From: Tribonema minus
Lineage: Eukaryota; Sar; Xanthophyceae; Tribonematales; Tribonemataceae
DNA: 64,000 bases
Direction of reading: 5' to 3'
Assembly (NCBI GenBank): GCA_017506865.1
Contig: JAFCMP010000514.1
Span: 434,001-498,000 of the forward strand
The notes under the pieces were generated by a model. The model ran no database searches. It was not told the origin of the DNA and saw nothing but the letters and a program-made list of their open reading frames with translations. The first letter of the stretch is position 1; every line of letters starts with the position of its first letter. Positions 25,401-58,900 of the stretch are shown piece after piece. A program made the position numbers and the translations under genes.

Positions 25401-28400
25401 GACGCCGACTCTATAGCAGCAAACAGTGAGGCGGCTTCGCAGCCTTGGTCTTAGATCTCTTGGCTACCGGCTCCTGACTGATGGTATCATCTGATGCATC
25501 AAACTCTCGTTCAGAAGTGTCAGCAGCAGCTGAAGCCGCTGTGTCTACCGCTGCTGCAGCGGCAGCGGCAGCCGCTGCGGTAGTGCGATAACTAGGGCCA
25601 ATGATGCCTGACATACTGCAAGCATTGACGGTCTGCGTTTTGATCGCACCCCACACACTGCTGTCCATGGCCACAAACTTCTTGGTGCGTGGATCTAGCG
25701 CCTCTGCCATGTGAAAAATCATAGACTGATCTGTGAGGGCGTTAGTGCCGTCACCCCATCTGCGATTGAAGTCCATCAGAATGAGAGCACAGGCTGATTC
25801 AAATGAGCCAGTGTCGGCGACTAGCTCATCATCATCGGAATTGGACTGGTCTGTGATACCCCCCTCGTCGCCGGAGAGGGCCTGAGTGTTGTTGCCCTGG
25901 GTCTCGATCAGGTCTTGCAGAGGCAGTGCATGCTTGCGCAGCTCAGCGCGCAGGTGGCGCAGAACGCCGGGCAGGAGGCTGGCCGTCACATACCTGCGAG
26001 CAAGGAGCGGTGAAAATCATGAGAATTCTTGATGATATACATAAATGAACAGTGTTCATGTACTGCTGCAGAACTTCACCAAACACCAGGGAAACAGCGG
26101 TTCACTTGGTCACATGCGACAACTTGAAATCTGGAGGCCAATGCTTCAAATGTGCGGCATTATGTGCCCCAGTGTGTGGCAGGTGTATTATAGCTGCTAA
26201 TGCAGCCTGCCAGTTACTGTAGTTACAGTAACTGAGTCAACATGTTGCAGTCCCTGCCAATGCCGCTGCTGCTCCAGCAGCGCATCATGTGATGAAGCCC
26301 AACCGAACATACTTAGTCTAAGACTCGTTGATGCACAAGTAAAGCACAAACAGGCACATAGGTCCAAACCCTAAGCTGCATGCACTACAATGTCATGTCA
26401 TCAATGATTGATACTAAATCTGAATAAACTTCAAGGCTGCAATCCCAATTGGAGTATTTATTATGCATAGAAGCTAAGACTCACTTGCTGCCCTCCAGTA
26501 CGGTCTGTGCAGTCTTGAATGGCCTCAAGAACTGCACTGCCAGTTGCATGCCCCGCTTGTCCTCCTCGGTGAGCGTGACACCCCCGACCGCTCCAACGTC
26601 TTGGTGAGGCTTCTTGCGGGAGATCTGAAGCACCTCGTAGGCAAGTAGAAGGTGCACCCAGCTCTCAAGCATGGTGCATGTAGAAGACCTGCGTGTAGGC
26701 TCATCCTGCTTCGGGGTCATGAACTTGAGGTTGCCGCCACCAGGCAGCTTCACCATAGCTGCACCAAGCTGAACAAGCATGCAAGATTATCGTAGCAATG
26801 ATTAGCAAGCGACACAGTGACTGTCACAGTGTTATGCAATGCAAGGATGTCATGTGTGATCAACGGATGGACAAGTCACCTTATCAACTACACCCTCAGA
26901 TCCAAATTTGAACTTGCAATAACCACATTTAAGAATCTGTGGTGCGCCAGGCAAATACTACTATAATAATCATAATGGACAACACAACAATTGTTAGCTG
27001 GTGACAATTGCATCATGCATGACAGTCAGGTCACCACTCACCACATGCACCCCTCAGAGCCTCCATGTCTGCGTTTGACTTCTCTATGTGGCCTGACAGC
27101 TTGCGAAGCTTTGCCAGCAGCTTGGCACATGCAACGCTTTTAAGCACCTTGCCTGTGAGACAGCAAGCAATGGAATCATTATGGTCAACAAAAATTGCAG
27201 CAATCTACATCAGATTCCCAGCAGTGGGCAATATATGAACACCAGGCAACGCCATTTTCTTCAGAGTGACATTCGTAATTGCAAATCAAAATGACAAAAA
27301 CTCTTGAACTCACCAACACTGAGCTCCAACACATGGTTGGCGCAGCCAAACCACTCGAAGGGCAGCAGACTGCCAGCCTTCTTTGCGTTGGCTGCAGTGT
27401 CAGTCGTGATGCTGAGCACATTGTCTCCGTTGATGTTGTAGCGGCCCAGGACTTCCAGCACGCGGTCCTTGATGCGCTCGCCAGTGTGCTTGCCGTCAAA
27501 CGCTGCGCACTCCAGCACAAATTCCAGCAGCTCCCACTCAGCTGTGATCAGGTGTGCAGTGACGGCCATCATGGGATGCTGCACCATGTCTGTCCAGCAG
27601 TCAGTGGTGAGTGCGACGTGCTGCTGCTCCATCAGCTGCTTCAGGTGCAGCTGGACCTGTGCTCTGACCTCCCCCATGCGCTTTTGGAGTGACTCAACAG
27701 AGGGCACCCTGGCGTGCTTCTGCTTTGCTGCCTCGATCAGCTGCTTGAAGGCTTCACTGTCTACTGTGGAAAAGGGTTGGGCAGTCTCCACCTGCAGTAC
27801 ATTGAAGCCGAAGCAAGGGCACAGAGTCTATTAGTTGGACCAATGGTGAGTACCTCTGCCAGGCAGTACCAGCACACATGACAGTTTCAATTTGGTGAAC
27901 ACCTGAGGTTATCCGAGTGCACAATCCATCATGGTGCTCAGCTCATTGACAACGCCCAAGATATTGCAGAGAGACTCACCATCCACTTGAGCAAAGCGTC
28001 CAGGAAAGGTCCGTGACTGAGTGACGCTCACAATGGGGTCCAGTGTCCCTGCCTGGGCCTTCGCGTCGTTGGCGAGGTTTACAATCTCCTTGTGATGCGT
28101 GTTGAGGTGGTTGTTCATGCCGGTGGTTGTGCCCGACTTGGTAGCCACCTCCGTCAAGCAGTGGTCGCATACAGCCACTGCAGGCATGCGGTTGTTGGAA
28201 TACACCTTGAAGTGCTTCCATACCTCCGCGCGAGCGTCCGGCTTGCCCACTCGCTCCCAGGTGCTCCTGTCCTCTGCGACGGTGTCCGCATCTGCTGTTG
28301 GAGGGCGCAACGAGACGCCGCGAGTGCGCCTCGAAGTGCGAGGTGCTGCTGCAGCAGCAGCTTCTTCAGCTTCATCTTCGTCCAGCATGCGGAAGTCATC

Positions 28401-31400
28401 GTCATCACTCATGGTGCAGCTCGCAGATGAATGGCCCGCGATATATATTAGGCTTACACAAATAGCTTAATATGGAAAGTGGCTTATGAAAACAGCTAAA
28501 TAGCAGCATTATCGAACGATAGTCGATAGTTTCGATAATCGATAATTGTTCGATAATATCGAATTATCGAACAGATTTTCGATCGATATTCGATATGATA
28601 CGATATCGATATTATCGAGCCATTTCGATTCGATCGGAAGCTCTAGATCACACCGATCAAGTCACTGACAGCGCGAACGCGGCCTCCTCCTCAGCCTGTC
28701 AGCTCCTCCCCCCCCCCCCCCCCACCGCCCTGCCCCCCCTCCCCCCCCCCCGTCATCCAGCTCACTATTCTTGGCTGCTGTCACTCACATCATCTCTATC
28801 CCCATAGACCGTGGCGAGCACGCCAAGCGCATCGCTGCCGTTCGTGTACTTCCGGATCATGCCTTCAGACCCCCCACCCGCCGCCCATATCTCCTGGAGC
28901 CAAGCGCGGGCGGCGGCGCGGTTCACCGGCGGTACGCTGTTGAAGCCTGGCAGCAGGTTGAACGCACCATCCGGTGGCCCAGTGGCAGACATGTTTCGCA
29001 TTGAATCCGGCGCTGGCCGCAGCTGCGAGTCCCGATACAAGAGAGTGGCAGCCCTTGCGGCGCTGCCGGCGCCGGCGACGCCGCTGACACAGGCGACAAC
29101 AGTTGTGGTGCCGGGGCAGCCGCCGCTTGCTGCAGCAAAGGAGGCAGCATGTCCGTGTGTGATGGCTGCTACTGCTGCTGTTGCTGCTGCTGCTGATGCC
29201 ACTGCTCAGCAGGGTGCTGCGATGGGTGCGCGTTCTGAGACATGAGCTGCTGCCGCAGCAGCTGCTGCGATGGTGGCTGCTGCGGTGGGAGGAAGAGTGG
29301 TGGCATCTGTTGCATGTTGGGAAGAGTGTGCTGCTGCTGTTGCATGCTGCTCAAGAGGGCCGCGGCCTGCTGCAACAGCTCCTGAAGCTGCAGTTGCTGC
29401 TGGCGCTGATGGCCCAGTGAGATGGCGGCAGTTGGGCTGCTGTAACAGCTGGTTTAGGGTGGCACTGTGGAAGCTGGCAACCGGAGCGGGAGGTGGCACG
29501 AAAAGAGCAGGCGCAGGAAGATAGGGGGGTGCTGCGGGGTGCCCCACGGTAGACATGGGCCTTGCCCCTGTCTCAGTTCTGCTGGCCAGGCGTTTCGCTG
29601 CCGCTGTAGACTGCTTCACCTGTGCTTGGTACTCGGCCAGCTCCAGTTTGCGCTTGTGGTTGCTGGTCTCGACCGCCTCTTTCTCTGCGCGGACTTTCTC
29701 GTCTGCCTCTTGCTTCTGCCTGAGTTGAGCAGCTTTGAGCTGCGCGGCGCGCTCCTGCTGCTCCTGCTTTGCGGCTGCCTGGGCCAACTTTGCAGCGTCA
29801 ACCTGCTGCGCCATCCTGACCTTCGCTGCTGCGTTGCCTTCAATGAGTTTTGGCTTTGGCTTGAAGCACGCCTGCTGCTGCGACATCTGCCTCCTTCGTG
29901 GCCTTCAGCTTGGCCAACTGGTTGAGGGTCCTATTGCCGCGCTTTGGCGCAGGGCGGGAAGACGCTTCCGACTCTGTTCTGGTAACGTCGCCGTCGACCT
30001 CAACTTCAGAGGCGGAAACAGCTGCAGATTCCGGGTCAGACAGCTCAGGCCTTGGCGGATGACGTGCCGCAGGCACCTGCGGCTGTTTTGCTGAATTTTC
30101 ACGGGCCGGCTTTTCTTCAGTTCTCGCAGGGCTCTTGTCCTGCCTGCTGCGCGTCCTCATGCTCCCATGCAAAACAAGCACTTTGTCAAAAACACGTTTT
30201 GATCACAATTTAACTCTCAAAAGACGCAAACCTTTCAGCGCCCCTGGAATTGATTGAAGTGCAACCGGCACTTTGTTCATCAACGAGACTTGCAATCAGT
30301 CGTGCGTTGTCACCTTTTTGACCAATTCAAACCGTCTTTAAAAAAATCACATTTATTGAAGTTGCTTCGAAGCAAACTACCACTTCTCACACTGCTAATG
30401 GGGCACTAACGGAAGCTTAAAGCAGGCTGCAGCCAGGCTCCGGACGGTCCGAACTTTTGGGAGCTTTCTTCCACATGCCGCGAGCCTCAGCAGCAGCAAC
30501 AGCAATACCACGTCAAATACACATGTTGTGCATTTCACAGTAGGGCGACCATAAGAAAGTACCACCAGGTCTACTAATGAAAGCAAAGAGAAACACCCAG
30601 GCCTACTTAGGATCGGTGACCGGTACAGTCATAATCATTGACTGACTGACCTAATTAGGCACATGCCAGCAGCGTGCTTTTGACGTAGTCCTCTGCGCAT
30701 GTGTTGAACGCAGGTGTGAACATGCGGCTTAGGGTTGAGGTGACCGTAGGCGATGGCGATTAAGCCCCACCCGTCTAGCACATTTGGGGTCGAATGCGTC
30801 ATATAATGCTAGGGGAGCCCGTCTTATACCATGTCCCCCCCGGCTTAGCGCGTCTCCGGCACGACGAGATGCGTCTCATGCGCCGGGTAATGGGCATTAA
30901 GCCGGGGTCCAATCACGCAACGCACCAAACCTTTCACGCCAGACGTTGCCTAGATTTGGACTGCAGCAACTGATCGGTCTGTGCACGCTGTCACCCATGG
31001 AGTGCTTGGACTGTTCTCCTGCGGTTTGCATAAGCTGTTTGCGAGGTAGCCATGCTGCAATGCCTGCAGCACATGGACAGCAGTGACACATGCAAGCCAA
31101 GAAGCCCTCGCATATCATGGGCAGTAACGGTGCCACCGCCATGGTGCCTTTCCCTAGGCGTCTCTCGGTAGGTGACTACACACGTTCACACGTTTCCTCA
31201 AACTTCAACGGTTCAATTGCTTGAAGTTACTGGAGAACTGCCTGACTTTAGGTCAACAATAGAAATCAGCTTATTATCGTATGGAATATGGTCTTCGGGC
31301 ATCTCACTCTGTGTGAGTGACGCATGATGGGCACTTTGTGCATGTTTGCACAGGGCGGAGGGGGGGTCTTATTCCATGTACCCCCCGTCTAAGCGCCTAG

Positions 31401-43920: not shown

Positions 43921-46900
43921 TCAGCCGAGGCGGCGGCGTTTCAGCTCCGCAGCAAACTCGGCGTCCGTCGCAGCGAGGTCCACGGACGAAGTGGGCGGCG
44001 CGGCGACGCCGACGCAGAACTCATTGGGCGTAAAGACGCCAGCCGGGTCAAACTTTAACTTGAGGTTGCACAGCCGCGCGTACTTGTCGCGCGACTCGTG
44101 GTAGAACGGCCACGCGACCGCCATGTTCTTCTCCTCGAGCGTCGCGTGGTACGAGCCCCACAGCACGCGCCTGTCGTAGCCGCGTGAGAAGTTGCCCGCG
44201 GGGCCCTTGAGACCTGCGTCGTTCTCCGCCTGCCAGCGCTCCGCGATCGCACGCGGGTCGCGGCGCGCGCCGACTGCCAGGAGGTCGCGGGGGTCATAGA
44301 AGGCGTCTAGGATGCATACGACGGTCGAGTCGCGCCAGCTGTAGGCGGTCGCGGCGTTCGGCCCAGAATCGTTGTTGCGAAACTGCGAGAGGCTGCCGCC
44401 CGTGTGCTGGATCTGTGGTGCGCGCGGTGTCGGGCAAAGCGGTCATGTTAATGGAACGGAATGTGTTCGAACAGCCACAAACGAATGCACTTCGCATGTC
44501 GTCCGGATAGGCAAATCAGTGGCCGGCATTGCTAGCAAGTGAAGCGGCTTACCTTGTGATGCTGTCATGAATGCAAACAAGCAAGCTGGAAGAGCAAAAC
44601 AAGTAGACACGCTTCAGAGAACTCAAATGAAATGTTATGCGAAAGGAAACGCGATGCGCTTACCGGATATTTTATTCTGTTGCTGAGAGACGGAAGGCTT
44701 GGGGCTGGACGACGGCTGGCACAGCAAGGTTCGGGCTTGCTGCTTGCAGGGGAGGTTCTGATGCTGTGCATACTACTTTGATGTGCCCTTTGGCATGTGA
44801 CCCAACTAGTTGCACCTGCCTTCAACTAAGGTCAGGCCAGCTCTCAATCACATGTCAAGGTCTACACCGACTACACAGGTCTACTGAGACCTGTGCCAAC
44901 CTGTGAGGTGTAACTGCCTGTAACTGTCTGAATACACCCCCAAGCCGTATCAGATCCCCCTTCTTTGCTGAGCATCGCCCTCGATGCGGACTTGAACTCG
45001 AAGCAGCAGATCGCGGTCCCTAGTGTAGTTGCAGCATGCTCGCACTAAGTGCACTACTAAGCATGGAGGCCAATATAGAACTGGTTGGAAACCCCATTAA
45101 AAACCTGGGAGGCAAACCTGCTAGTCAGGGAAATCCTCTCTGCAGGAAAAGGGAGTCGCCGGCCTCAGCTTTGACTCAACTTGAGTCCCCACAACTACTT
45201 CGCACTCTCCTCTGAGGATATACTACGAGCGGCGAGCACGTTCCATGATGAGTATGGGCTGTCTTTTGGCGTGCGGTAGTCACCCGGACGTAAGCGCATA
45301 CGCCTGACAGTCTTCTCACCGTCGAATAGTACATCAAACGTGAACTGCGACCTGGCGGGGTAAAACTCACCCAGGACGCCGCGGCTCCAGCCTGTTGGAA
45401 AGTGATACCAGATCACTTCACCCTCAAAGTCTGATCCGAAATCAGATGGCAGTTTGGGCAGCCTTACCAGCGAGATCTGCGGCTGAGCAGAATCTTGGGC
45501 TGAGCTTGCCTCAGAACTAGTTTGGGAAGGTGGCAGACCTCGCGTGACCTGAGAGTTGGGACTTGCACTACTCGCGCTGTCCGGCGCGCTTTGCGCCTGC
45601 AACTTCTTGGCTTTGTCACGCACTGCCTCTGCCAACTGTATGGCAGACTTGACCTGTGTACGGGTCATCTGTTCCCACTCACCATCCTCATATCTGATCC
45701 TCCAGTATGGTGACACAAAGTTCTTAACGGCCCCCCACACGTAAGTGATCGGGCCGCCCACTACCGTTCTGTGCTCCCTGACCAGCGCCGTGCCGATGGG
45801 ATAGAGTTGCAGCGCGCTCTCTCGGCGCATGCCAGCATCCTCCTTAGGTGTGGGCCTGATGGCATATGCCGGCAACCTTCCTTCGTTGCGCAGCTCATAG
45901 AGCGCGTGAAAAGCGTCTAAGGTCCATGGCGTCACTTCTTGCAGCATGTCATCCTCTGACACCCACGCATGTGACTTGCCATCTATGGACTGCCATTTGT
46001 ACTGCCACGAGCCATTGGGGCCCGCTTGGCGGTCCAGAACTCCGTATAACTTCTCACCATCTGCTAGCTCCTCCACTTGTCGGGGGCTCAGCATGGCGTG
46101 CACACCTGGCTCCAACATGGCACTAGGCCTCATGTGGAAGGGCTTCATGTTCTCAACATGAGCTGTGGTGTGTCTAACTCTTCTGCCCATCATCCTGCAG
46201 ATGAATGAGAGGCCTGATTCGCCTGTGCGAGCCTCGATCTGCCAAGGCCCCACATACCTGGCATCAAGAGCAGCCGACCTGTCTCTTTGCCTGGGTAGCC
46301 GTATCATGACATAGTCACCGACGGCGAACTTCACCGCGCGCTTAATAGCTTCATTGCGCTTGGTGATCTTCTGGGCGCGTACTTGCAGCGCCTTTGACAC
46401 CACCTTGTCTGCAAGCTCAAGCATATCTAACTTGTGCTCAATCTCTTCGTGTAGGTCCAACTTCCTGCTGCCATCCTCGTGCATAAATGCATCATGTGGC
46501 AGTGAAGCTTCCCGACCGTACACACAGAAAAAGGGTGTTAAACCTGTTTCATCTCGGGGAGTTGTCCTCAACACAAACTGTACGAGCTCTAAGCCTTCGT
46601 GCCAGTTTGTCTGCTGAGCGCTGACCCAAGATGCTAGTGCCTTCTTAGCACGACCATTTGCATGTTCTGCCACACCATTGGTCTGTGGGTGGTATGCACT
46701 GGTCTCTATGCGTTTAACTTTAAACGCTCTGCAAAGGTCACTGACCACATTGCCAAGGAAGACTTTGCCCTTGTCTGAGCATAGTTCCTCCACTAATGCT
46801 CCAACCTCAAGGAACACTGTCATGAGGTGCGGGGTAACATCGCGCGTTCCCTGGCCGTGCATGGCCGAGAGCCACACGAAGCCGGACCTTGCTTCCACTA

Positions 46901-49900
46901 TGGTCAGGACATATCTGTGCCCTGCCGTGGACTGTATACCAGGCTCTGTGATATCTATGTTGAGCCGCTGCCACATACGCACGGGCTCAGCTAACCACTG
47001 TCTGTACTGAGTGGAGCTGGCGCGTTTGCGCTCGAGGCATGTCATGCAGCTCTGCACGTACGTTCGTATGTCCGCGCCCATACCAGGCCAGAAATACCTC
47101 TCGAATATACGCGTGTGCGTAGCGCCTATGCCGCAATGCATAGCGCTTGCGTCATCATGCCCTAGACGCATGACTAGGGTTCGTAGCACCACTGGCACGA
47201 CCCACTGCAACAACACCATACCTCTCTTGGGGTGGCTCGTTGAACTGTGCACTAAGAGGCCATCTTCCTCGATGGTATACTGCTCTCTCTGTGCTAAGAC
47301 GTGAGCGGCTAGCTCCGCGCCTTCGGGTATGTCACCCTCAATGAGCATCTTGCTCACTGCTTGACAGAACCCGTCCGCTTTCTGAACTTCAAGAAATGCG
47401 GCTCTGCTGAGCATTGCTGGCGTGGCAGGCGAGTCTCCCTCGGCCACCCGTTTCAGCAACTGCACTACTTCTGGCCTTGGCAGCGTCTTCTTGCGCTTGC
47501 CTAAAACAGCTTCGCCATCCGGTGGCTCGTCTGCCTCATCTGCATCAGCAGCAGCTTCTACCTCTGGAATCTCTCCTTCTTCCAATGAGTCTGCCGCCGG
47601 CTGAGCCGTGGTGACGCTGCACTTGGCCCTCTTTGAGCTGATGCTGCGTCGCCTGTCGCATGCGATCTGCCTTAAGAGTCTCTGCGCTTGGGAATGCTCC
47701 CACGAGCCGGTGTACTTATTGACTGGCTCTGCTTATGCTGTGTTGATCTCAACTTCATCAACCTCAGCTTCCTCCACCGTGGAGTCATCTAGCCTTCTGT
47801 CCAACAACTGCGCTAGCTCCACAGCTGTCAGAGCGGCTAACCTAGCGGCCACTACGCCTGATATGGCGACGGCCTCGTTGAACTTGAACGCTGGCCCGTA
47901 ACGTGCGTCCGCCGTGTACCCACGACAGCTGTTCACGTCGGCCACTTTGTGCGTTCTCGTGGCCTCGTCCGCAAAGCGCACACCTGACGGCGGTGCGTCC
48001 ATGCTCGGGACTGCGTCTGGCCACTGTTCGTCTGCTGGCTCCGTAGAGCGCTCAGCATCTAACTCTGCCTGCTGTGGCAGCCTGGATGGGGCATCAGCAT
48101 TGGCATGCCTTTTGCCAGGCCTGTGCTGAATGGTAACGTCATACTCCTGTATGCGCATGGCCCATCTTAGTAGCTTGCCGTTGTAGTCTTGTAACGTCAA
48201 CAGCCACCTGAGCGCAGCGGCATCTGTGACCACTGTAACGGGGTTACCCCAAATGTAAGGCCTGAAGTGGTTGAGCGCCAGCACTACTGCCAGACACTCT
48301 ACTGCCGTCGCTCCTAACTTCGCGTCGGGTTCAGTTCAGCTTGCTGAAGTAGCCAACGACTACTTCTCTGACCTCCTCGCCTTCAGCTATGCGGCGCCTG
48401 CCCGTGTGAGCATATGGCTGTCCCGCTGTTGCCCTTTCGACCTCACTCACAGGTCTGAACTGTGTAAGCACACCTGCCGTCGCCGTCTTGGAGGCGTCGG
48501 TGTACAATACGAAAGGCAAACTGAAATCTGGGTGCATCACTATGCGACTGTCGCACATGGCACTCTTCAGCCGCTTGAAAGCCCGCTCTTGCGCAGACCC
48601 CCAAACCATGACTGCTTTGTTCTTGGTCAGGGCTACTATAGGCTCTGATATCGCCCCAAAGTTGGGTACATATCGCCTGTAATAGTTAAACACTCCCATA
48701 ACCACTTGTACCAACTGCTTGTCTGGTACCCCGCCTTTCAGTGGGGGGCTCATGTCAAGCATGGCCTTGACCTTGTCAGGGTCTGGTCTTGTTCCAGCGG
48801 CGCCAACTATATGGCCTAGGAACTTGACTTCAGCTTGAAACAGCTGACACTTTGGGCGAGATACACTCATGCCCGCCGCGCCTATGCGGCCAAGAACATC
48901 ATCTAACTGCTCGATGTGCTCCTCGATGTCCGTGCCATACACCAACACGTCATCTATGTACACTAGCGCGTGGGAGCCTAAGGCATCTCCCAGCACTTGG
49001 TGCATCAATCTCGTAAACTGCGCTGGCAAGTTCACCAGCCCGAATGGCGCCACCTTGTAGTGCCACAACGAGCCGTCTGGGGCTCTGAAGGCCGTCTTGG
49101 CCTTAGCCGTCTTGGCCAGCGGGATCTGATGGTAACCCGCTGCCAGATCTAACGAAGATAAGATCCTCGCACCTTGCACGGCCCGCATCATGTCATCCAT
49201 GTTGCCTAAGCCATGACTATCACGCTTCGTGACCGCATTCAACTTCCTGAAGTCTATGCAGAAGCGGATCTTGTCGCCTTGAACCACTAGTACTGGGTTG
49301 CTTGCCCATGCACTAGCTGATGGCTCAATCTGTTGGCGCTTTGCCATCATCTGAATCTGTTTCATGATGTACTCGGCTTCTTTGAAAGCCCAATGGCGTG
49401 CCTTGTCCGCCACCGGTTCGGCCGTCTGAGTGTCAACATCAATCTCAAAATGCTGAGTGACTCGAGGGTTTTTAGGGTCCTTAGCAAAGACATTCCTGTG
49501 CTTTTTTAGCATGTCAAGTGCTTTTCTTTTTAACAGTACCCCATCTTTCCCCCTTCCTTGCAAATGAGGCGCAAGCCTGCCATCTTTCACAAGGATTTCC
49601 TCCAGCTCTGCATCTGTGCAGTTCTCTAGCTGGTCATTGTGGCGCTGGCTGAGGTCTGCCAGCCGTTGCACTTCTTGTGCAACCTCTTTGGCAGTCTTGC
49701 CTATGCTAGCAGCTAATTCTGCCACTAACTTAGCATTTTCAGAGTGCCTTTTGGCTGCTATTACTAGCAGTTTGGCTTCTAGAGCCTGCTGAGTAGCTGT
49801 CTGCACTTCTAGCAGATCATCAGCCTTAATTGGAGTCACTTTTCCCCAATACGTGTTGCGGCGCACGTAAACCGGGTACATTGAAGTGTTGCTCAATGTA

Positions 49901-52900
49901 GCGTATATCGTGCCGCTGGCATTTACAGTGAGAGCGGTGATATTTGCCTTAACACCTTTGCCTCTCATCATTTCTGTAGTCACTGTTTCTTGTGGCATGA
50001 GCAATGCCTCATAGGGCTGCACGCGCTTTGGCTTTGGTAGCAGCGTGAGTTCCACAATCGTCTCCGACGATGGTGCCAGTACAGTGTTATATGCCATCCT
50101 AGCTGAGCACTGCTGAGGCTTGTCTGGTGCCTCAGTGCTCTCAGCGCTGCCATTGCCCTTGCAACTGGCTAGTGCTGCCGCATGCGCGTTCGCGTTGTCT
50201 GCGCGATTCTTGTCGTGCATGGGGCGTATGGCCACACCTTTTAGTCCTCCTGGGAAGAAGGCTGGGCTACCGCCGTGATACGAGATGACTGAGCCATGCG
50301 GGGCAAAGAAATCCGTACCTAAGAGCACGTCCATGGGTGCGTTTACCACATAGAACTTGTGCAAGAACATCTTGTTCTTAAACCGCAGCCATGCATTGAC
50401 CACACCACTGATCTGCAGCGACGTCTTGCCGTCTGCCAAGAGGATCTCAGTGTAGTCACCTTGCTGAGGTGTACATACATAGCTGTTGGGGAGCTTGTCT
50501 GCAATGCGCTTGCCCATGATGGTTACGGTCGCACCGCAGTCTACCATGGCGCGCACATAGAGTTCTTTGGGCGTCTGAGAGTTGCTTTGTACGCGTAACG
50601 ACGCGGACACAAACATCTGCCCTGGAGGTACAACACCGGCTACTGGGCGTATGTACTCCACTGGAGCCTCCGACTTGGAGCGCTCTACCGAGCTAGGCTC
50701 AGGGGACCCTACTGCAAGGTCTACATGAGGTAACTTGACTGGTTCCCTCGGTTTTGTGATCTCTTCTGTGAGATTCTTAATTGTCTCTGCCACACTCACT
50801 GGTGGGGCTGTGTCTAACTTGCTGACACCTGGCACATGGTCTAATATGCCTAGAGACTGAGCATCAAGGCCAGCGCGCCTGAGCGCTGCCTTCAACTCAC
50901 CTGGGGCAAGGCGCGGGTCTGTACCGCCGCCGAGCTTCTTGCGTGCCGCTGCGGCCGCAATGGGTGGAGCACTGATTTCTGTGTCAATGTCCATGTCGTC
51001 TGCGCTACTGCAAACGCTCATAACTGACTGTGAGTCCCACTCAGAGTCAGACCCTGAGTCAGAGTCATCGACTTCCACGATGTCAGCCATGCCGGGCTGC
51101 ACCACAGCCAAGTCTACCTCTGGCTCTTCCCATGCACTGCGCATCGGAATTATGGGTACCTCTGCATACCCTGCATCATGCGCCTTTGCATGTATGCTAC
51201 GCGCCACTGCTGCTGAGCAGTGTGCACTTGACGTGGGCGCTGCGTGTACCGCGGTAGCGGCCTGCACCAGCGAACCACTCTGACCAGCCAACCAAGATGG
51301 GGGCGGGCAGTCAACTGAATGCCTCAACGTAGAGTCTGACCTACGCGGCAAACGTACCTGTTGTTCTGGCAGTGTGCACAGGCCTGAGGCCTCAATTGCC
51401 ACGAACAAGTGAAATGCCATCTCTGGGATGAACAAGTCTGCAATGTAACGCCGTACATCACTACTGCATGCACTCGCTGGTAATTCATGATAATACGTCA
51501 TGAGCACTGCCATTTCCGCAAGCGACAGCAAGCGGGCAGATGCCACTGGACCAGCGTCTTTTGCATGTGCAACATAACTCGCAGTGGGCCTACCAGGCAG
51601 TCTGCGCACTGGGCTAGGCAACAAGCCATCAGCATCCAAAACACCAGGGTGCTGAGCACTGCGTGGTTGCAAGAAGAATGTGCGTTCGGGGCAGCGCAAG
51701 CGAGAGCGAACAGATGTGGGTCTGCTTTGTAAACGCTTGGTATTTATTACCGCACCGAACCTCTGGAGCGCCTCACGTGAGGCCACCCCTGCTGGTACTA
51801 TGACAATGTACACCCACTGCCTCCTGCAAGGTACTTCAAACTCAGAAGCCTTTAACTTGGCAATGTACAGCATGTAACCAGCCGACTTGAGAATGCGTAC
51901 TGCGCGTGCAAACGCGCGTGACACTAGCACTCCTGGCACATTCTCATACAACACCACCCGAAGCTTGGCCCGCACGATGAGCCGTGCGGCATGCACCGTG
52001 CACTCGGCAGCTTCGCCCTCGACCTTCTTGCCCTCTGCCGAAAAATCTGTGCAGGGCGGGGAGATGGTGGTGATGTCAGGTTTCTCGTCAAGAAGACGTG
52101 CAACAACCTTCGCATCAGTCATGCATGCAGTCATTGTGGGCACTTCTGGATGAACTTCATGCAGAGCCTCAATTGCCTTGACATTCTTGTCAACTGCAAG
52201 CACTGTGCGTGTTACAAAACCTGCTCTAGAGGTCAACTTACCCCCAGCTATGGCGCCTCCTAGCGCCCCACAGCAGATAGACGCGTGTTTGATAACTCTG
52301 GGTGGTGGCTCTGGCCCACCCTCAATTGCCGCCATCTGTGCGCGCAAAGAGACATCGTAAACAGCGTCAGTGGCATGCTCAGCTACCTGTGCCGAACATG
52401 CATCTGCTCTAACTACACCAGGCAATTCACTGATTGCTGATGCTGAACTTGCAGCAGGCAAGTCACTTCCTACCAAGGCAGCAGACAACTGCAAGTGTGA
52501 TTCACCTTGGCGGTGCTTTTCTGCCATCCTCTTTCGGTGCGCAATGCACTGAGGGCAGGTAGTCTTGTGCCGCATAAGTGTGTCCCAGTCTCCCTGGTTC
52601 ACTCTGCAGCCAAGACACTTGAAGTTGCTCTGGGGCTTGGCTCCGCCGCCGCCGTTATCGCCTGCGGAGCTAGCCTTGCCCTGCGGCGCGCGGTCGCTGA
52701 CTCCAAGCTGGCGACGCTCGTTAGCGCTCAGCCCCGCCAACACAGCGCGAACAGCCGAAAGCTTATTCTTCTTTTTATAGCGATGGTCGTTACTGACCAC
52801 GCTCCACCCATCCTTGGCAGGGCGCTTGCCTGTGTCAGAGTAGGGGGGGGTTGAGATGTGTGCCGCGGCCATTGCAGACACAACATTTCGAGTCTCGCGC

Positions 52901-55900
52901 TCGTCAATAGGCGCTGCCTGCCACTTTTGCTGGGCAGTTGCCACGACCTTGGGAAAAGCGGTGTTCTTTAGATCCCAGGTCTCATACATGCCGTTTACTT
53001 CTTGACGGCAGCATAATGGCAGTTCATGAACGAACTTCATACGAACAATTTGCTGGTTGTCCGCGCAGCCGGCGTCGTGCGCGGCTGCAACTACCTCCCT
53101 GCCCCACACTTCGGGGCTGGTACCGGAGGTACGCGTGAGTTCATGATACTTTTGAAGTGCTATTTGCCTGGCAGATGTGCTATCGTACGCTGCCGTAAGG
53201 CATTGCACCATCTGCTCATAAGACAAATCACTAAACGCACGAGTTTCTAGCATTCCCGTGCGCTCATTGGTGACTGCGCTGGTCAGATCAGCGTACTGAC
53301 TCTTGGTCAGACTCTGCAACAGCGCTTCTGAGTAGGCCGACTTGGGCACGCCACGCGTGTCGCAGCTACGCTCAAAAGCTCTAATGGAAGCTTCAAGCCT
53401 GCCTACTTGCGTTACAATGACGACGCCAGTGCCGCCGAAACCCCTCAAGTCAACTTTGGGTTTCCGCACCGTCATGGCAACTGAGGAGTACGAGGGTTCT
53501 ACTGCCCCCGCAGTCCTAATGCTCTCACCTAGAGCCGATGCGCTGGTGGCTACGCCGGCCACTGCGCCATCTTCACGCGGACTCGCAGCTGCGCCGGCTG
53601 CGTCGTCGTCCGACGTGTCGGAGTGCCCGTCAGTGTTGAGGAACGGGTGCGTCACCAGGCTGCGCGGGTAAGTGTCCGCAGCTAGGCGCGCCTCCTCGGT
53701 GACCAGAGGCGTGTTCTCGAACTCCCTTAGCATTCGCCAGAGTTCCGCCTCCTCACCGTCGCCTGTGCCGAAGGCGAAGCGATGCCAACTATTGGACCGC
53801 TTACGGTGTTCACCTATGGTCAGCAGCTCGCCGAACTGGCTAGCTTTGAAGTCATGACCACGTTTTTCCAGAAGTGCAACATTATGCTTGCGCACCTCTT
53901 CGGCCTGCTCCGCAGCGAACGTCCGCGCCATCGGCAGCAGTGAGTTCTTCACCATGTTCTTGCTCTCACTAGGAGCTCTGGTGACGCGAAGCTGGAGCTC
54001 GCCAAGGCGTTCGTAAAGGGCACGCTCGTGAATTTCGGCGAACGTTGCAGCCGTTTTGGCGGCCTTGGCAGCTCGCTGATGTGCCTCGACGCGAGCTTCG
54101 ATGCCCTCACGCCACTGGTCATAAGCCTCATCTGTGCCCTCAGGATCAAAGGGCACACCACCCTCATCACCAGATGACTCAGAAGACTCGAGCAGTTGCC
54201 TAACTGCCCTCCGTCGCTCTGCCGCTTGTTGCTCAACTGGCTTTCGCGGTATGACGGGCGCGCTACGTGGCACAACTGGCGCACTTTGCACGACTGGCAC
54301 GCTACGTGGCACAACTGGCACACGCCGCGCCTTACCACTTGCACCCCGACGCGGCTGCGTCACAGGCGATTTATCTGAGGCTTTAGGGGCCCTCGCTGGT
54401 GCAGTATAGTATGTGGGAGCCACTAGCCTAGCTGATGGCTTGGAGCTCTGAGGCGTCGGAGCCGCCGGTGCTACTTCAGGCGCCGCAACTGGGACCCGTG
54501 CACCGCGCGTAACCGACGTCTTGGCCGGCTGACTGCGCGCGACCTTAGGTGGGGCCACCGCGGGCGCAACTAGTGCTGCAACTGGCACTGTGGACTTCGC
54601 AGGTGCTGGCGCCGCAGACTTCGCGGGCGCTGCCGGCACAACTGGCGCGGCTACCGGCACAACTGGCGCGGTTGTTGCAGCTGCACGCGGTGTCTTGCGT
54701 GGGCTTTTGTTGGTGCGAGTTTTTTCTCAACAGCTGCACGTGCAAAAGCTTCTTCGCCTTCTGCTACCTGGGCTTCGCTAAGCATAATGCCCATTGCTGC
54801 AAGCTGTTCTCTTTTCTGCCTCAAACGTAACTGCCTTGCCACCATGGCTTCGGCTTCTGAGCCGCCACCGCTGGGCTCGTCGCTGGACTCAGCAAAATTA
54901 CGTATCATAGGCGGTGCGGCACCAGTGACTACTGATTCTGTGGGCCGTACCGAGGCAGACGTGTCGGGCGCACTGGCACCGACCTGGCTGGGTTGTGCGG
55001 ACGCTGCCGCGGGCCGGGGAGGGGGGCGTGACGGCTTGTCACCCGAGCTTGGTGCGGGGCGCGTAGCGGAGCACTGACCGCCCTTGTTGCTCTTAGCAGC
55101 AGTGCTGCCAGCAGGCCTAGCACCGCCACTAACACCTCCGCTGCGGCTTGACCCACTCGTTGGCTTCTTGGAGCCATGGTCAGTCTTGACCATTTATGGT
55201 GTATCCTGCATACGATTCACGCGCATGAAGCTGAGTGCGACGACAAAACCATGATTTTTAAATTGTCAGCGCACGAGCCGTCTATGCCCCGCACGCCTCT
55301 GCACGAGGTCTGATGCTACTAGGGCACTCTGAACTGCAAGCCAGCCAGTTTGACATAGCAGTTGTACAGATCGACCGCGTTGTCAATTCTGCAACACAAT
55401 TGCGGCCGTACAATCATGAAGCAAAATTGCATCGCTTTGCTCTTAAGCTAGACTCCTCTCCCCCTTCTTTGCAAAAAAAAGCTAGTCATATCAGCTTTAG
55501 AGCAAATTACTAAGGAAGAGCATGCGGTAGGGTTTTTATTCTAGTCATAGGCAACCGTTACAGCCAGAAAAGTGGCAGCGCATGCCCCTTTGTGCGCTTA
55601 TTCTCGAGACTTCTCGAGTGCAACCACTTAACACTGTCTATGACAAGTCACTACCGTTTCTGTGACTTCTGATACACAAGCTATCACGTGTCCCCCCTAA
55701 AGGATCTCCGCGCGTTCTCCCGGGAGACTCTGGTGCGTTCGTGACGTGATAGTGTACGGCGCGCAAGCTGGTGTACACAGCGCGCTACCGCACGGGTCTA
55801 CCCTCGATGCCCTATATGGGTCCACGTGACCACGTTCATCAACCACAGATGAGCCGCAGAATAAGGCCAGCTAAATGAAGTTGCATGTTCATTGCTGCTC

Positions 55901-58900
55901 AGACCCGTGCAGCACGCACTGCTTCGTTGACATCAAGGGGGCGGGTCACGACGTAGCGGTGCACCACTACGCCGCCCCGTCATAAGCATTCTAGTGCAGG
56001 AACCTAGCGTGATTAACGTTTAACTCGCTTCCCACGGCTGTTCTTTACGTATCGCTTTACGTAATCTGGGTCCTCGAAAGGCTTTGACACTATTCGAGCA
56101 GTGATACATTGAACAGCGATCACCACGCTGCTGCCCTTGCGGGCGGGGTTAGCACGAGGTAAGGACTGTCTTCGGGTGCCAAATTGAAGCGGCTTACCTT
56201 GTGATGCTGTCATGAATGCAAACAAGCAAGCTGGAAGAGCAAAACAAGTAGACACGCTTCAGAGAACTCAAATGAAATGTTATGCGAAAGGAAACGCGAT
56301 GCGCTTACCGGATATTTTATTCTGTTGCTGAGAGACGGAAGGCTTGGGGCTGGACGACGGCTGGCACAGCAAGGTTCGGGCTTGCTGCTTGCAGGGGAGG
56401 TTCTGATGCTGTGCATACTACTTTGATGTGCCCTTTGGCATGTGACCCAACTAGTTGCACCTGCCTTCAACTAAGGTCAGGCCAGCTCTCAATCACATGT
56501 CAAGGTCTACACCGACTACACAGGTCTACTGAGACCTGTGCCAACCTGTGAGGTGTAACTGCCTGTAACTGTCTGAATACACCCCCAAGCCGTATCACAA
56601 GCAAAGGTCGTGGAGGAGCACCTGGGCAGGCTACTGGGCAATCACCAGCAGTTTGCACCGTCGCACTGCGCCGACAACTTCCGGCTTAGCTTGTACTTGA
56701 AGTAAAGAAAGACACTACTCAGCCACTACACCTGCAAGTGCCAGTGATTCTCACGGTGCAAGAGCGACATATGATTCCGCGCTGTTTACTCTCAGCCTGA
56801 CCAGTTTGTGAGCGCTGCTGTACTAATGCTAACCCTACCCCTAACCCTTGTCCCCTGCCCTGCGCCACTCACCTGAACGGCCAAGTTGCAACCATTGGTG
56901 AGATCGCTCTGAAGCGCGTCGATTCGGTCGGCGGTGTATGCAGCCCAGCCATCCTGGTTGAGCGTTGTGGACTTGGTCACAAATGTGCGCTGGGGGGAGG
57001 GGGGGTGGGGGTGGGGGGGGGGGGGGGCATGAAGATGTGTGGGGTTGGCAGCAGTTGAAGTATATTTGACCAGAGCCACTACGTGAAAGTGCAAGAGTCG
57101 CTTCCTAGGTTTGAGGCCGTGCGTCACGCAGGACACCTGCACAGATGTTGCCCCAATGTGTTTCACTACTGAATATGTGGCAAAAGGGCTTTGTGCGTAG
57201 ACATTCAGTGGCAGTAATACTGTAATATTGGTGTCGCTTGCTCAACAACACTTTTCGTAAGGCAGCTGAAGTGCTTGTGGTAGCTTGAAGTGCACAAGAT
57301 CTGAACTTTACTGCAATGGCACCTTGGTGAACTTTCTTCTGTTTTGTTTGAGCGGCGAAACCCCTGTCATGCAGTACTCCACAGAAGTACCTGGTGAACT
57401 CAGGTGCAGACGCACATGCCGAAGCACTGGTGGATGAAAGCGGATGCAATTTTTGACCCTTAAAGTAAAAAGGACTCATGCAAGAACCTGTCACACATAA
57501 GACATGTCTTAGCATTGCCACTGCATCAAAGCACACCCGTGCAGGTAGAGTGCACTCAGTGCAACCTGTGTGCACCGGGCGCCAGTTGCTAACGGTCTGG
57601 TGTGTCTACTGCACATACCCGATGTTATACAGGGTTTTTTGCCCCTGACGCAGAGTCGATTAAGGTCAGATTTGCACAGTACAACGATATATATGCAAGC
57701 ACAAATTTCAAAACGCGCATACAGCTCAACATACTCCAAACATATAGCCATACACTAAGGGTATGTATACTTGCCGTCGTCGCACACGCTGAGACGTCAC
57801 AGTGTGCCGTCTGAATGCATGTCCTACCCGCCATGTTGAGATGGCCGATTATACCGAAGATCACGAAGCTGGCATGCTCGTGCCACTGCACAAACTGCAT
57901 CATCTTACTCCTGGTGTCGATTGCGCCAACAACAACAATTGCAATCTGCACCTGCCAAGCACAGGCAGATTCTGGGCTGTGCTGCAGTGCTGGTGTCCAA
58001 GCTAATAGCACGCAGTGCAGACTAGGCTGCTGCATTTTTTAGTGAAGCCCAGGCATACCATATACTAGGACACCCGACCTCCCTCAGGGCCTTTGTTGAT
58101 GAGTGCAAGTCCATAAGCACAGGCGAAACACACACTTCAAGCATTTACAAGCTCCAGTCTCACCTTGACATAGGGCGTCTCAAACTCGCGCACATTCTGG
58201 TACACCCACGGCTTGGTCAGCTGGGACATGGGCGTATGAACCTCATCGCGCACGATTGGAATTTCCAAGAAAGTGCCGGCGGCTTTCTTGATTGAGTCGA
58301 ACCAGGCCTTAGCCGTTGAGGTCTCGAATGTCTCGTCGTCGCCCTTGAGATTCGCCCACTGCACGTACAGCATGATAGCTGGGGGTTGCAGCAGGACGTC
58401 GACATTGCCATACTCCTCCTGCAGGGGGGGGCAATGCAGGGGGGGGTGAAGTTGAAAGAAGGTTATGATGGGGGACCGAACAGAGCAGATCATCGACACA
58501 GCAGCATTGGGGAAACGGGCATAGGGAATAGAACGTGAAGTTTCATTTATGTTACACCTCACCTTGTGCAGCGTGCGCATGTGCACGTCGATGTTGTCGA
58601 CGCCGTACAGGGCAGGATTTGCTGACCAGCGCTGACGACCGTGACGCAGAAATCGATGTCTGCCGGCAAGGCGTCGTCGCTCGCCATGTCTGCCTTGATG
58701 TCGAGCAGCTTTTTAAGGCGGTCCTTGTCGTAAAGGGACAGAAGCTGCAGGCAGAGCCACAGAGAAACAGTTTCACGGGAGTCAGGACAACATATTAATT
58801 ATTATTTTCTTGCATAGGGCGCACAAAAGCGCTATGTACACCATTTTGGCACCTGATTTATCAACAGGTACGCATATCAGACGCACAGATTGCGTCAGCA

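Follow-up and report, generated by a model that had tools for sequence, protein, structure and literature searches.

A cytosine C5-methyltransferase domain in the polyproteins of Ty3/Gypsy retrotransposons from a probable xanthophyte host

The 64,000-nucleotide stretch of Tribonema minus contig JAFCMP010000514.1 analyzed here (positions 434,001 to 498,000, referred to as the window) contains on its minus strand a 12,058 bp Ty3/Gypsy retrotransposon (44540..56597), the polyprotein of which carries a C5-cytosine DNA methyltransferase (MTase) domain. We propose with moderate confidence that this element of a xanthophyte alga harbors a compact enzyme of the prokaryotic or phage type, which likely methylates the element's own cDNA or its insertion site. 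The domain occupies residues 810-1115 (51382..52299) of a 2131-residue open frame (48331..54726) and follows a Gag/zinc-like region, with the protease coming after it. The DNA_methylase profile PF00145 matches the frame with an E-value of 1.2e-14 and a score of 54.9 bits, the cut-off being 22. The catalytic cysteine of motif IV (PPC, codon at 52051..52053) and the ENV of motif VI (codons at 51937..51945) correspond to positions 83 and 119-121 of alignment A1 and are invariant in all 12 of its rows, and the motif VIII arginine is likewise kept. The original prediction had described just such a complete domain, with intact PPC and ENV, at this place in a Gypsy polyprotein and had called for a methylase-profile search; the description is borne out by the alignment and by the significant profile match.

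The AlphaFold model of the domain has a predicted local distance difference test score (pLDDT) of 93 and shows a class I MTase fold with a small DNA-recognition part, and M.HaeIII and M.HhaI could be aligned to it across the whole domain. A Foldseek comparison with the viral library gave a phage MTase as the top match (E 1.1e-21, TM 0.82; second match 2.7e-14), and the top match in the PDB library had an E-value of 7.6e-13 and a TM of 0.67. DNMT3 was absent from the structure-comparison matches listed, which is uninformative by itself. The sequence profile of the MTase matched 59 PDB chains at E<=0.1, including DNMT2, HhaI/HaeIII, DNMT1, CMT and DIM2, and none of the 59 was a DNMT3 chain. A single 500-residue stretch (P0001) had no match among PDB sequences at 0.01, and no full-length relative of the MTase part of the window frame was found at 0.001 in a set of 5.8 billion proteins. 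A search of the protein set with the 12-row alignment returned 40 proteins, two of which (P0002 and P0003) are evidently close to the families described here. Both are environmental MTase fragments from JGI metagenomes, with 81% identity to the domain of locus L026 and 58% identity to the window domain, respectively, and they probably come from uncultured relatives that carry these element families. A search of viral contigs gave no match.

The domain is not confined to the window. Of 378 first-look candidates from a PF00145 search of the 158-Mb genome, 123 places were scored, and the true number is at least 123 as these counts are lower bounds. Open frames were measured at 122 of the 123 places, and they reach at least 1000 residues at 87 and at least 2000 residues at 47 of them. 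We read 60 domains, namely that of the window and 59 of the 123 best-scoring PF00145 places. Thirty-nine of them were fetched as short stretches, and a flanking reverse transcriptase (RT) was seen only where a longer locus was read. Loci L005-L008 and L029-L032 were left out of this set (L006-L008 duplicate longer loci, and L005 is a separate place outside the 60). At least 300 of the 320 profile positions were present in one piece in 47 domains. The motif IV cysteine was kept in all 60, the PPC of L023 having been read separately, and ENV in 59, the single exception being L077, the domain of which is in two pieces. The residues in front of the cysteine vary to some extent: PPC is replaced by SSC in L061-L064 and by SNC in L076. 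The window family, which has motif I of the SICCGALGG type, supplies 29 of these domains, 22 of which are full-length in one piece.

Nei-Gojobori estimates of the ratio of nonsynonymous to synonymous divergence (dN/dS) in the MTase were 0.17-0.23 for four window-family pairs among the window copy (WIN), L019, L020 and L023, 0.20 for L010/L026, 0.19 for L011/L018 and 0.23 for L014/L017. In L010/L026 and L011/L018, the silent sites are almost saturated. For comparison, the RT and integrase of the L010/L026 pair had dN/dS of 0.08 and 0.15. Most values are purifying, and the MTase domain is kept by selection overall, less strictly than the RT.

As for the origin of the enzyme, 86% of the window MTase could be aligned to a single phage record, with 26.7% identity, and the MTases of L009, L026, L021 and L011 matched 17, 12, 20 and 55 phage records, respectively. 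The best phage-type match was that of the L011 MTase to the haloarchaeal virus HGTV-1 (95% coverage, 1e-18). A human gut phage record labeled UNVERIFIED (MT837117.1; L033:1943-3795) has two adjacent cytosine MTase genes and was matched by the window, L026, L021 and L011 types. In a tree of 64 rows without DNMT references, which had few rows per family and from which P0009, P0024, P0026, P0039 and P0041 were left out, the retrotransposon MTases formed one group (98/93) beside the MT837117 pair (99/98). For the reference tree, 12 of the 64 rows (long or redundant) were dropped and DNMT1, DNMT2, DNMT3A and HhaI were added. Here, the retrotransposon MTases and the phage pair grouped together with 98/95, and DNMT3A lay across a 94/98 split from the retrotransposon MTases when the tree was left free. 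The window motif IV reads PPCTDFS, and the PCN form found in DNMT3A is absent from it. Hence, the MTase probably stems from an enzyme of the prokaryote or phage type and not from a host DNMT3. This origin falls short of proof because the four references all sit on long branches and the environmental rows were found via the retrotransposon profile itself. The genome's best PF00145 matches are free-standing C5-MTase frames of 367-390 residues and the SGIGGL type (L001, L002 and L003; G000:C223, C181), and L001 and L002 cluster in the trees with environmental proteins, apart from the retrotransposon MTases.

The host was examined through its light-harvesting complex (LHC) genes, 92 matches to which were found in the genome. 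One LHC open reading frame shares 95% identity with a Tribonema minus protein (P0042) across 83% of the query. Vaucheria (76%) and Phaeothamnion (67%) are among its further named matches, as are brown algae. The PDB chains matched by this gene and by a second such gene carry the names FCP, ACPI and CAC, which belong to chlorophyll a/c algae. The host is thus a xanthophyte (stramenopile), probably Tribonema or a close relative, a conclusion based on one gene, and the chlorophyte host suggested earlier has to be abandoned. Phycoerythrin alpha, a cryptophyte marker, had no match in the genome, but control genomes were also without a match, so that this result is uninformative alone.

Three positions of the MTase within the polyprotein were seen. 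In the window element and L020 the order is Gag, zinc, MTase, protease, RT, (RNase H), integrase; L021 has the same order, its zinc stretch being unrecognised. L010 and L026 have the order protease, MTase, RT, RNase H, integrase with a C-terminal chromodomain, which scores 29.3 bits in L010 (cut-off 25.1) and 22.9 bits, slightly under the cut-off, in L026; a protease was recognised in L026 by a match that does not reach its cut-off. In L080 and L081, the MTase follows RT and RNase H in one frame and the integrase is in the next frame. L014, L016, L017 and L024 have the MTase before the RT, and their protease was not located. By RT identity, the elements fall into four lineages, each with MTase-bearing loci: window/L009/L021 (56-69% mutual identity), L017/L016 with L082/L084 (64%), L026/L010/L013 (65-86%) and L080/L081/L083, which is only 18-29% identical to the other lineages. 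L083 is 98% identical to L080 and has no MTase from the frame start to RNase H, the stretch after RNase H, where the MTase of L080 is located, being unread.

In the MTase tree, L068 and L076, which are the MTases of L081 and L080, adjoin the window group with 95/80 support (80/28 with the DNMT references). The RT data are compatible with this grouping, with a p-value in the approximately unbiased test (p-AU) of 0.102 with L083 and 0.105 without it. A transfer of the MTase between Gypsy lineages against the RT tree was considered and dropped, as agreement of the two trees was not rejected. Since the MTase grouping is not contradicted by the RT data, the distribution may go back to a single uptake followed by rearrangement of the domain order, to lineages having exchanged the domain or to related enzymes having been taken up a few times; the three domain orders require at least some rearrangement or re-insertion. 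A fuller scenario can be put forward only tentatively: a phage or bacterial MTase may have been taken up by Gypsy elements on one or a few occasions, coming to occupy three polyprotein points in four RT lineages, and may act as the retroelements' de novo methylase, the marks of which are kept by a DNMT5-type host enzyme; in some elements it would later have become a non-catalytic module.

If the enzyme is active, it would be released with, or remain tethered to, the Pol proteins and would reach DNA in the particle or in the pre-integration complex, where it would methylate cytosines, probably in CpG, in the new cDNA or close to the insertion site. According to the accessible part of PMC10538959, Tribonema minus possesses DNMT5, HELLS and CDCA7 and lacks DNMT1. 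Maintenance of marks laid by the element is conceivable for this reason: a DNMT5-type host enzyme could keep them, and the insertion would then arrive pre-methylated. Such pre-methylation may lower the toll on the host, make the cDNA pass for host DNA or flag it to the integrase complex. A footprint of methylation was sought in 26 window-family rows, the three more distant copies L065, L069 and L078 being left out. Transition-variable columns make up 32 of the 126 C/G positions in CpG and 45 of the 420 positions outside it (Fisher p 1.1e-4), an excess that is as expected if CpG is methylated.

Several observations weigh against the proposal that the domain methylates the DNA of its own element. 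The CpG signal cannot separate self-methylation from methylation by the host, and it comes from one family without a control element and with related copies pooled as one sample. The CpG observed/expected ratio of the element (0.80) is about the same as that of the window (0.81). The dN/dS is near 1 in some close pairs (0.99 in L009/L022, 0.94 in L010/L012 and 0.91 in L005/L011) and 0.41-0.58 in L015/L022, L011/L013 and L009/L015, and no silent changes were found in L010/L025 and L026/L027; such values would be as expected of young or dead copies. The active-site motifs were read in score-selected domains and are therefore biased towards intact sites. A different picture was obtained with loci L082-L084, which were selected by RNase H among places without a listed MTase. 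Two of the three have an MTase-derived domain before the RT, and the third (L083) has none before the RT and is unread after RNase H. In L082 (C214, L082:2600-3560) and in L085, which are the two copies of this kind read, the PPC of motif IV is deleted and ENV is changed to ENA. The L082 domain is taken to be homologous to the others from a hidden Markov model match of 2e-12 and from the common motif I, motif VIII and C-terminal positions, the Pfam match being only 0.018. As the frames of this family reach 3455 residues, catalysis would be dispensable in some lineages. The original prediction would have been refuted by substitution of the catalytic residues in all other copies. This was not observed, as the cysteine is kept in the PF00145-selected domains; the family found by RNase H, in contrast, has lost the motif.

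An explanation that takes up this last observation is that the domain mainly binds nucleic acid or has a structural role within the capsid or the integration complex, with catalysis being incidental. The motif-less L082 and L085 fit it, as do the changed proline of the Pro-Cys pair in L061-L064 and L076 and the comparison of L082 with L084, in which the MTase has a dN of 0.22 and a dS of 1.46 and the RT 0.05 and 1.62. L084 has 93% RT identity to L082, a cysteine in an altered context (STRCEGAS) and an ENV. However, the dS of this pair is near saturation, and a cysteine that binding does not need is kept in 60 of 60 domains, albeit in the score-selected set. We consider the module explanation unlikely. 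The domain could also methylate RNA, either the genomic RNA of the element or the tRNA primer, as DNMT2 does on tRNA. Retroelements package their own RNA and tRNA primer along with Pol, and the best solved match of the MTase sequence profile is indeed DNMT2 (E 2.8e-25), ahead of M.HhaI (1.5e-21), which counts against a DNA substrate as well. RNA was proposed as a possible substrate of SymbioLINE-Dnmt in the accessible part of PMC5890265. An RNA substrate nevertheless seems quite unlikely to us.

The enzyme might instead be of the DNMT3 type and akin to that of KnitGypsy-Dnmt3, which belongs to the same element superfamily and embodies the same general idea (PMC5890265, as far as accessible). 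Forcing DNMT3A into the retrotransposon group costs 15.6 log units and, with one DNMT3 reference, is not rejected (p-AU 0.074), and the support for the retrotransposon group without the phage pair falls to 83/59 once the DNMT references are added; both results weaken the case for a phage-type origin. The form of motif IV, the 59 PDB matches and the position of DNMT3A in the free tree, all given above, speak against a DNMT3-type capture, and we find it improbable. It is also conceivable that the MTase blocks or misdirects host silencing, by pre-empting the host enzymes or by laying a gene-body-like mark, instead of aiding a step of transposition. The chromodomains of L010 and L026, together with a weak Tudor-like match of the window polyprotein, would place a reader and a writer in one polyprotein, and chromodomain or Tudor readers are described for Gypsy elements of related algae in the accessible part of PMC12477816. 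The reader domains may equally serve simple target-site choice, and interference with silencing appears to us a rather unlikely role. Methylation of the element's cDNA or insertion site remains our preferred reading.

The remaining features of the window element are those of an ordinary Ty3/Gypsy retrotransposon. Its 413 bp long terminal repeats (LTRs; 5' LTR at 56185..56597 and 3' LTR at 44540..44952) have TG..CA ends and 0 differences between them, and they are flanked by a 4-bp target-site duplication CAAG (44536..44539 and 56598..56601). A putative primer-binding-site-like stretch, TGGCACCCGAAGACAG (56166..56181), lies 3 nt inside of the 5' LTR and is proposed from its position and TGG start. 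A putative polypurine-tract-like stretch (44953..44968) directly precedes the 3' LTR and is proposed from its position and composition. The long open frame begins with a Gag-like stretch (residues 431-640, 52807..53436), assigned by position, and a zinc-finger-like Cys/His stretch (residues 696-760, 52447..52641), assigned by eye; both are conserved in copies and without a Pfam match. Downstream of the MTase are an aspartic protease-like domain (50305..50556), which has D-C-G-A at the place of the usual DSGA or DTGA and is conserved in copies (PF13975, E 1.9e-4, below the cut-off), an RT with YIDD (48805..49275; PF00078, E 7.8e-27, and alignment) and the beginning of RNase H. The remaining RNase H portion and a linker (47733..48335; PF17917, E 3.1e-15) are in a different frame with an in-frame stop at its end, and another open frame (45195..47732) encodes the integrase, with its H2C2 zinc (PF17921, E 4.2e-17) and rve core (PF00665, E 8e-6, below the cut-off), and a C-terminal tail. 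The order of protease, RT, RNase H and integrase is thus that of Ty3/Gypsy elements, in two frames in the window copy and open in L020.

The window copy is young yet broken downstream of the RT because the RNase H remainder is in another frame and the integrase follows an in-frame stop. The near-identical copy L020 is open across Gag, zinc, MTase, protease, RT and integrase, and an adjoining stretch reaches the same C-terminus; therefore, copies of the window family with an intact frame exist. The integrase (window:46686-47198) differs from those of L020 and L023 with a dS of 0.29-0.50, whereas the dS of the MTase and RT is only 0.03-0.13 among window-family copies, as if these copies were mosaics. 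The Pfam scan of the window element showed the integrase H2C2 and rve matches and no phage-integrase match, unlike a DIRS element, and, in addition to the presence of LTRs, no endonuclease match, unlike a long interspersed nuclear element (LINE). No chromodomain was listed in it at E<=5 with weak matches filtered out. The C-terminal tail (window:45198-46067) contains the weak Tudor-like match mentioned above (45648..45737; PF21743, E 0.004 to 0.04, below the cut-off), a possible chromatin reader beside the MTase writer; at best it has an E-value of 0.0041 and 17.3 bits against a cut-off of 27.2, and the model of the tail is unusable with a pLDDT of 41. Elsewhere in the window, minus-strand frames at 25411-28466 resemble, by eye, a hAT-type DNA transposase with a BED-like zinc finger, and an Rfam scan of the window gave no match at the gathering score.

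If our interpretation is correct, cytosine-MTase retrotransposons occur in a third major eukaryotic group, the stramenopiles, beside dinoflagellates and charophytes, and an apparently prokaryote-type enzyme is present within several Gypsy families of a single genome. An enzyme of the kind normally used for silencing jumping genes is here part of a jumping gene. What a transposon gains from carrying it can be tested within one host because intact, altered and motif-less versions coexist and their placements are comparable. The elements could also supply de novo methylation to an alga whose relative Tribonema minus is reported with DNMT5 and no DNMT1 (PMC10538959).

That retrotransposons can capture C5-MTases was already known, as the original prediction had stated: the accessible parts of PMC5890265 and PMC12344493 describe such LINE and DIRS elements in Symbiodinium and Gypsy elements in Klebsormidium. 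Its further suggestion of a separate capture is supported, since the present domains appear distinct from the published Dnmt3 ones. As described in the accessible part of PMC5890265, KnitGypsy-Dnmt3 of Klebsormidium nitens is likewise a Gypsy element of the LTR class, and its Pol polyprotein contains a C5-MTase on which purifying selection acts, but this DNMT was placed in Dnmt3 and the repeats are arranged as in a DIRS element. The present elements, compared by description, have ordinary LTRs, a non-DNMT3-like domain, three domain orders and a stramenopile host. SymbioDIRS-Dnmt3 also carries a C5-MTase in the Pol frame and has two domain orders, and CG methylation was shown in yeast for its domains, the results for SymbioLINE and KnitGypsy being inconclusive; it is a tyrosine-recombinase element with a Dnmt3, whereas the present element has a DDE integrase and LTRs (PMC5890265). 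SymbioLINE-Dnmt resembles our elements in being a high-copy retrotransposon with an orphan non-Dnmt3 MTase and differs, again by description, in being a LINE without LTRs that has the MTase in ORF1 (PMC5890265). Closer in host are the Gypsy elements with C-terminal chromatin readers of Ectocarpus and Tribonema minus, which belong to the same algal group. The accessible text of PMC12477816 describes a Gypsy homolog with a Tudor domain from T. minus, and chromodomain Gypsys and a NADAR domain in Gypsys of Ectocarpus; a search of it for the terms methyltransferase and DNMT found no cytosine MTase. The Tudor reference type for the window comparison was Gypsy-10_Ec32. A literature search by title and the start of the abstract, with most subscription papers outside its coverage, found no C5-MTase retrotransposon of a stramenopile or xanthophyte. 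Among free-standing enzymes, the tandem pair of MT837117.1 is closest to the retrotransposon MTases in the tree and shares the compact domain and a P-x-TIRG-type region with them, but its members are separate phage genes with about 24-27% identity. M.HaeIII and M.HhaI share the fold and motif order and are stand-alone bacterial enzymes with 15-18% identity. In summary, as far as seen, the host group, the non-DNMT3 character of the enzyme, the three domain orders in one genome and the retained motif-less version set the present elements apart from the systems described previously.

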